Below, piece by piece: positions 10,304 through 10,912 of a DNA stretch of 64,000 bases (position 1 is its first letter; the number at the start of each line of letters is the position of its first letter). A program made the translations under genes and the position numbers. Source of the DNA: Phycisphaerae bacterium (GTDB taxonomy: Bacteria; Planctomycetota; Phycisphaerae; UBA1845; JAFGLZ01); assembly GCA_016927755.1 (NCBI GenBank), contig JAFGLZ010000265.1:1-64000 (forward strand). The letters run 5' to 3'. The notes beneath the pieces were generated by a model that had not been told where the DNA came from, searched no databases, and was given only the letters and a program-made list of their open reading frames with translations.

Positions 10304-10912
10304 ATGGCGCTGTTCAAGTCATCCGAGGAACGACGCATCGAGCGGGACATGAAGATTCGCCAGGGCATCCGGCGGATCGAGCGGGCGATCCGCGAACAAG
10401 GCAAGTTCACGGACGAGTTCATCGGCAACGCGCGTCGGGCCAAGCAGATCGGCGACACGAGCCAGTACGAGTTCATCCGCAACTCGCTGAAGAAGACGGC
10501 GACGATCAAGCGGATCCTCGAACGGCAACTGCTGGCGGTCAAGAACGCGCTGCTGATCAAGCGTCAGGCGGAGGCCTCGGCGGACTTCGCGACCGCGATG
10601 GGCACGATGGCGCAGGAGATCGGCCGGCTGTTCGGCGAGACGGACCTGACCAAGACGCAGGTCGACTGGGAGCGGGCGATGGCTCAGTCGGCCAGCATGG
10701 AGGAGCGGATGTCGATGTTCCTGGACTCGGTGGAGGACATGGCGGCGCAGGACGTGGAGACGACCGGCAGCCAGGCCGTCGGGGACGACGAGATCGATCG
10801 CATGATCGAGGCGGAAGAGGCGGCCGAGCACGAGAAGGAGATGGGTCGGCTCGCTGGGCTGCGAGATGAGCTTGCCGAGCTGAAGGGTCAGAAGGAGCGG
10901 CAGGGGAAGTAG
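10304..10912 (+). CDS. Snf7/ESCRT-III-like coiled-coil protein (candidate)
   Basis: Basic N-terminal helix (SSEERRIERDMKIRQGIRRIERAIREQGKFTDEFIGNARRAKQIGD) then NSLKKTATIKRILERQLLAVKNALLIKRQAEASADFATAMGTMAQEIGRLFGETDLTKTQVDWERAMAQSASMEERMSMFLDSVEDM and an acidic C-terminus. Confidence 0.78.
   Translation: MALFKSSEERRIERDMKIRQGIRRIERAIREQGKFTDEFIGNARRAKQIGDTSQYEFIRNSLKKTATIKRILERQLLAVKNALLIKRQAEASADFATAMGTMAQEIGRLFGETDLTKTQVDWERAMAQSASMEERMSMFLDSVEDMAAQDVETTGSQAVGDDEIDRMIEAEEAAEHEKEMGRLAGLRDELAELKGQKERQGK

Follow-up and report, generated by a model that had tools for sequence, protein, structure and literature searches.

Whether a bacterium can encode an ESCRT-III protein together with a dedicated Vps4-type ATPase is the question raised by a gene at position 10304 of a Phycisphaerae bacterium contig (JAFGLZ010000265.1), analyzed here in a window comprising its first 64,000 nucleotides. 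A recent survey restricted the ESCRT-type machine to archaea and eukaryotes, and Ravi et al. (PMC11237479) reported bacterial Vps4 only with snf7 displaced. As they also note bacterial homologues of PspA and Snf7 that accompany AAA+ ATPases in some operons, ESCRT-like complexes in bacteria are not in themselves a new idea. In the open-access literature searched, no description of a planctomycete ESCRT system was found. The initial annotation took the 10304 product (P0001, here ESC3b) for the third of three Snf7-like subunits, with a basic N-terminal half and an acidic tail that could bind a MIT-like domain of the 11171 product (P0004).

Conservation of the ESC3b gene

The peptides on which the initial annotation relied are all present in the translation of 10304-10912. 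The family was found in 49 of 61 genomes of the same order, at approximately 70% identity, and the 80 named loci, labelled almost all Phycisphaerae or Planctomycetota, carry homologues 59-79% identical to ESC3b that retain invariant residues. Some match was obtained in 58 of 297 genomes of the phylum, nearly all the strong ones lying in other Planctomycetota classes with about 40% identity. Conservation with invariant residues across loci and classes indicates that the ORF is a protein-coding gene.

Evidence that ESC3b belongs to the ESCRT-III fold family

A Snf7 search of its own genome and single-sequence Pfam and PDB searches with ESC3b alone gave only noise, so family profiles were needed. 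Pfam Snf7 (PF03357) was matched over nearly the full length by 33 of 56 diverse family members, with a best E-value of 2.7e-6; the individual scores shown for members were 15-24 bits, under the Pfam gathering score of 27.3. None of eight reversed-sequence controls matched Snf7, and Snf7 was the commonest Pfam family for the 56-member alignment. When the family profile was run against 177,635 PDB sequences, all five matches at E < 10 were ESCRT-III proteins; with the Chloroflexota and Thermococcus homologues added, eight of nine were (best E 0.0015). The PDB matches include CHMP3, Snf7 and CHMP2A.

The predicted structure is in agreement with these profiles. An AlphaFold2 model built from 81 sequences, of moderate confidence (pLDDT 75.8), places helices at residues 7-49, 52-110, 115-153 and 161-200, which is the ESCRT-III layout. 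The top seven PDB matches of this model in Foldseek were CHMP2A, Loki CHMP4-7, CHMP3, CdvB (three entries) and CHMP1B, all of them ESCRT-III, with probabilities of 1.00 for CHMP2A, 0.95 for CdvB and 0.85 for CHMP1B; the E-values, 0.09 or worse, are weak, as usual with long helices. In 65 homologues the mean charge was +11 over residues 1-90 and -15 from residue 111 to the end. Thus the ESCRT-III-like identity, the ordering of segments and the charge split proposed in the initial annotation are all borne out, and the outcome named there as refuting, that neither profile nor structure would resemble ESCRT-III or PspA/Vipp1, did not arise for this family.

The acidic tail was correctly recognized as acidic, but it is not the end of the protein, since a conserved helix follows it. 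Two conserved islands were found in the tail, DEEIDRMI (residues 161-168) and LRxELxxLK (186-194). The strict MIM1 consensus occurs in none of 81 family sequences; the pattern L..EL..LK, in agreement with MIM1 at four of its six positions, occurs in 79 of 81, compared with 2 of 81 reversed tails. From its sequence, this C-terminal motif is a plausible candidate MIT-interaction motif.

The 11171 product is a Vps4-like ATPase with a predicted MIT fold

P0004 carries an AAA domain and lid followed by Vps4_C (25.7 bits, cut-off 21.3), and is the sole gene above the Vps4_C cut-off in its genome. Its best NCBIfam model was CdvC, over residues 14-367, with 251 bits against an equivalog cut-off of 650. 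The first 90 residues are predicted to form a three-helix bundle (pLDDT 83.8) whose Foldseek matches were mostly MIT domains (MITD1, VPS4A/B, yeast Vps4 and katanin; probability 1.00, TM up to 0.86) and included, also with probability 1.00, the MIT domain of archaeal Vps4 with ESCRT-III (2w2u). The MIT-like domain anticipated for this protein is therefore recovered in the predicted structure, although it is barely visible by sequence. A TPR identity for the same region, which TPR_2 matches in 15 of 38 sequences had brought up, was set aside, as the predicted fold matches MIT. PMC10936438 uses a MIT domain and ESCRT genes nearby as features for recognizing Vps4; P0004 has the first by fold, weakly by sequence, and the second in its neighbourhood.

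In a small, unrooted tree that lacks CdvC and eukaryotic Vps4, P0004 fell in a planctomycete clade of its own (support 100/98), outside the archaeal clade that holds the Thermococcus Vps4. The latter (100/100) includes the Chlorohelix Vps4 and a planctomycete protein, AAA2. AAA2 is a second MIT-looking AAA ATPase that adjoins the ESC3b homologue in other planctomycete classes (loci L074, L077, L078, L084, L086, L087, L088 and L089), with a pore loop that is mostly SKYFGESS. Among planctomycetes this archaeal-type ATPase was seen only in other classes, and a search at E 1e-50, run without a positive control, did not find it in 41 genomes of the same order. With P0004 in a separate planctomycete clade and AAA2 grouping with archaeal Vps4, another ATPase seems to have taken the place of the archaeal-type one in the order to which the window belongs.

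Organization and co-occurrence of the gene cluster

The cluster consists, in order, of genes for a Ser/Thr kinase, a winged-helix/ESCRT-III-like fusion, ESC3a, an optional PspC protein, ESC3b, the Vps4-like ATPase and an SPFH/WD40 protein (Table 1). The order from the fusion gene to the 597-residue SPFH/WD40 gene, with or without PspC, is complete in 44 of 80 loci, and contig ends interrupt many of the others; 20 regions from the same order show the same arrangement with few exceptions. Of the 80 loci, 70 have a kinase that shares about 50% identity with the 6289 product and in most cases lies roughly 4 kb upstream of the ESC3b gene. Conservation reaches neither the gene preceding this kinase nor those past 14197, which bounds the cluster at approximately 6289-14197.

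Table 1. Coordinates of the cluster genes and of predicted features of their products
Feature	Coordinates	Strand	Basis or remark
Ser/Thr protein kinase, C-terminal zinc ribbons	6289..7467	+	
Small membrane/zinc-ribbon protein	7516..7887	+	Poorly conserved (5/80 loci), doubtful cluster part
P0003, fusion: N-terminal domain and winged helix (~1-260), ESCRT-III-like C-terminal half (~271-449)	7919..9358	+	
P0002 (ESC3a), second ESCRT-III-like helical protein	9383..9991	+	202 aa
PspC-domain membrane protein	10062..10265	+	PspC match E 4e-24; frame open as of 10032, start probably at 10062
P0001 (ESC3b), ESCRT-III-like protein	10304..10912	+	ATG start, 202 aa
ESC3b helix 1 as modelled (residues 7-49), basic, ESCRT-III hairpin arm 1	10322..10450	+	AlphaFold model, charges
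ESC3b long helix 2/3 as modelled (residues 52-110), basic, conserved ERQLL	10457..10633	+	AlphaFold model, conservation
ESC3b predicted helix 4, residues 115-153, acidic	10646..10762	+	AlphaFold model, charges
ESC3b tail motif DDEIDRMI (family form DEEIDRMI), residues 161-168	10784..10807	+	Conservation
ESC3b tail motif LRDELAELK, residues 186-194, candidate MIT ligand	10859..10885	+	MIM1-like at 4/6 positions
P0004, Vps4-like AAA ATPase, pore loop SKWVGEAEQ	11171..12289	+	372 aa
P0004 MIT-fold three-helix bundle, residues 5-77	11183..11401	+	Predicted fold
P0004 Vps4_C oligomerisation domain	12179..12274	+	Pfam, over cut-off
P0006, SPFH/Band-7 and WD40-type beta-propeller	12404..14197	+	597 aa

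ESC3b and the ATPase were both present in 49 of the 61 genomes of the order and both absent from 11, with one exception (Fisher p 2.9e-11), and they co-occur even when far apart, as in genomes G038 and G003. The 258-nt gap between their genes (10913-11170) contains tandem GGGTCTA-like repeats, the other gaps of the cluster being shorter.

ESC3b is the only one of the three proposed Snf7-like subunits with direct Snf7 evidence, the other two having none. The homologues of ESC3a include the C-terminal half of P0003 (profile comparison probability 95.7, E 9.7e-9) and the ~200-residue proteins of the Thermococcus and Chlorohelix Vps4 loci. In Pfam and the PDB it gave scattered coiled-coil matches with no direct ESCRT-III match, and its profile showed no link to that of ESC3b; on these grounds ESC3a is treated as ESCRT-III-like and not as a proven ESCRT-III protein. 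The winged-helix and ESCRT-III-like halves united in P0003, a combination reminiscent of CHMP7, are encoded by separate genes in other planctomycete classes. SPFH/Band-7 was matched by 14 of 40 members of the 597-residue family (best E 2.3e-6), in addition to a WD40-type propeller, and the PspC gene is present in about half of the loci.

Relatives in Chloroflexota and on an archaeal plasmid

A tblastn search of plasmids with the 10304 product returned two records only, from Candidatus Chlorohelix (Chloroflexota) and from the archaeon Thermococcus peptonophilus. The 49-kb T. peptonophilus plasmid (NZ_CP014751.1, locus L173) encodes homologues of the 10304, 9383 and 11171 products and of the N-terminal domain of the 7919 product, together with a kinase and a PP2C phosphatase. 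The N-terminal domain of P0003 matched residues 358-558 of a 607-residue Thermococcus protein with 43.9 bits, and the best decoys in the Thermococcus comparisons stayed below 4 bits. Judged by architecture, this protein and a 172-residue one probably correspond to arCOG09748 and arCOG08177. This plasmid gene set is that of Makarova et al. 2024 (PMC10936438) and thus matches their archaeal Main type, a clade known from Thermococcales, Methanococcales and others. The presence of a whole ESCRT-type locus on a plasmid offers a possible vehicle for inter-domain transfer.

The Chlorohelix plasmid (NZ_CP128401.1, loci L172, L183 and L184) carries the core set in part: two genes for ~200-residue proteins lie beside Vps4 and kinases, and one of the two gives a 39-bit match to the 9383 family. 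The plasmid also has unusually many Ser/Thr kinase, FHA and beta-propeller genes. Relatives of the ATPase were not found among viral contigs, nor were relatives of the 10304 product among phages, so a viral origin is unsupported. Haloarchaeal plasmid ATPases were considered as bridges and rejected, their neighbours having no match to the family profiles.

The planctomycete cluster shares with the archaeal Main clade an ESCRT-III protein, a Vps4 with MIT domain, a winged-helix protein and a Ser/Thr kinase, and SPFH and kinase neighbours also occur in archaeal ESCRT loci. On the other hand, the host is a bacterium, the partners include PspC and an SPFH/WD40 protein, the winged helix is joined to an ESCRT-III-like half instead of a coiled coil, and the ATPase represents a second type, specific to planctomycetes. 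No gene for an arCOG08177-like small protein (Cas2-like plus TBP-fold) was seen in the window cluster, and for this reason the system was not assigned to the Main type proper. The helix layout and the MIT-AAA-Vps4_C architecture are also those of CdvB/ESCRT-III and CdvC/Vps4 in Sulfolobales, but identity is low, the CdvC score is far below its equivalog cut-off and no CdvA was seen. Eukaryotic CHMP/Snf7 and Vps4 proteins have in common with the planctomycete pair the fold, the basic and acidic halves and a C-terminal amphipathic motif opposite a MIT domain; they differ in that ESC3b lacks a strict MIM1 and resembles them in sequence through family profiles only. In the bacteria with Vps4-like ATPases without Snf7 (for example ACB74714.1; PMC11237479), a TPR/6TM gene is said to have displaced snf7, whereas in the window system the ESCRT-III genes are present and linked to the ATPase gene.

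Interpretation of the ESC3b cluster

Homology, fold, MIT domain, linkage and co-occurrence are demonstrated here, and we consider it highly probable that the 10304 product serves as one ESCRT-III subunit in a bacterial ESCRT-III/Vps4 system homologous to the archaeal Main type. The ESCRT-III fold is, however, common to PspA/Vipp1 (PMC8281802), and ESC3b might instead be a membrane-stress protein of that (IM30) type lying by chance near an AAA ATPase; a PspC gene does stand between the two ~200-residue genes of the cluster, and some Vipp1 structures appear in the Foldseek list of ESC3b. They appear lower down, though, behind Snf7, CHMP and CdvB structures, and PspA_IM30 (PF04012) appears neither in the list of 25 families obtained for the 56 members nor for any of ten members scanned singly. 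About half of the loci have no PspC, and the window system has a dedicated ATPase. Moreover, a separate true PspA_IM30 gene lies on another contig of the genome (G000:C185:2144-2791, L181; 47.5 bits, cut-off 33.9). We rejected the PspA/Vipp1 assignment on the profile result and this separate gene, and regard it as very improbable.

Equally improbable in our view is that ESC3b is a coiled-coil substrate or adaptor that serves an AAA chaperone and plays no part at the membrane, its ESCRT resemblance reflecting convergence of helical hairpins. The helical structure and high charge of the proteins and the weak fold E-values speak for this reading, but the PDB profile matches were specific to ESCRT-III among all the sequences searched, with reversed controls empty, and homology ties the gene set, which includes the membrane partners SPFH and PspC, to an archaeal ESCRT type already published.

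For the ESCRT-III/Vps4 system, we infer polymerisation, membrane binding, binding of the tail by the MIT domain and the membrane process served. Together with the two further ESCRT-III-like proteins, the basic helical hairpin of ESC3b would polymerise on the cytoplasmic membrane, at its inner face. Recruitment or nucleation of the polymer at particular membrane sites may fall to the winged-helix fusion, PspC and the SPFH/propeller protein, a role to which the presence of SPFH and PspC genes in the cluster points. The ATPase would bind the C-terminal tail of ESC3b through its MIT domain, and the ATPase hexamer would pull out subunits and so remodel the polymer, whereupon the membrane would be constricted, cut or repaired. 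The kinase may regulate assembly. The cluster probably functions in membrane remodelling, possibly in division.

Is the cluster a division machine?

A passage of PMC5147048 calls the division and membrane shaping of FtsZ-less planctomycetes one of the major mysteries of the field. FtsZ (TIGR00065) had no match in any of the 61 genomes of the order and no match over cut-off in any of 297 genomes of the phylum, while 13 of 14 controls were positive; weak FtsZ-like matches, all under cut-off, occurred in 10 of the 297. As FtsZ is missing from the order and under cut-off across the phylum, a division role is worth testing. The system could then be the cytokinesis machine of FtsZ-less bacteria, as Cdv is in Sulfolobales, where archaeal ESCRT drives division without FtsZ, a role also thought likely in Thermoplasmata (PMC10936438). 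We consider this unlikely. Four near-complete genomes of the same order (G004, G015, G019 and G035, family f5) have neither FtsZ nor the system, as is the case for most other planctomycetes sampled; the cluster cannot therefore be the only answer for division. A role in membrane repair or sorting would agree no less well with the neighbouring PspC, SPFH and kinase genes and with the fact that the Thermococcus and Chlorohelix loci lie on plasmids. ESCRT-III, ATPase and FtsZ are all missing from the f5 genomes G004, G010, G015, G019, G035, G043 and G055, some of them near-complete. That a complete bacterial ESCRT-III/Vps4 machine forms the membrane constriction or scission apparatus of FtsZ-less planctomycetes is, in the broader sense, a possibility to which we likewise give a low chance.

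Significance

A conserved cluster for probable ESCRT-type filament proteins and an ATPase that would disassemble the filaments is present in this planctomycete and in the majority of its relatives. The conserved version in Planctomycetota, together with the homologues from Chloroflexota and from a Thermococcus plasmid, alters the known distribution of ESCRT, and this distribution suggests transfer between domains. If the interpretation is right, ESCRT-based membrane scission with a dedicated ATPase would not be confined to archaea and eukaryotes. The cluster points to an ESCRT system of bacteria in which PspC, SPFH and kinase proteins are joined as partners, and it provides a concrete, testable gene set for division and membrane shaping in planctomycetes that lack FtsZ.
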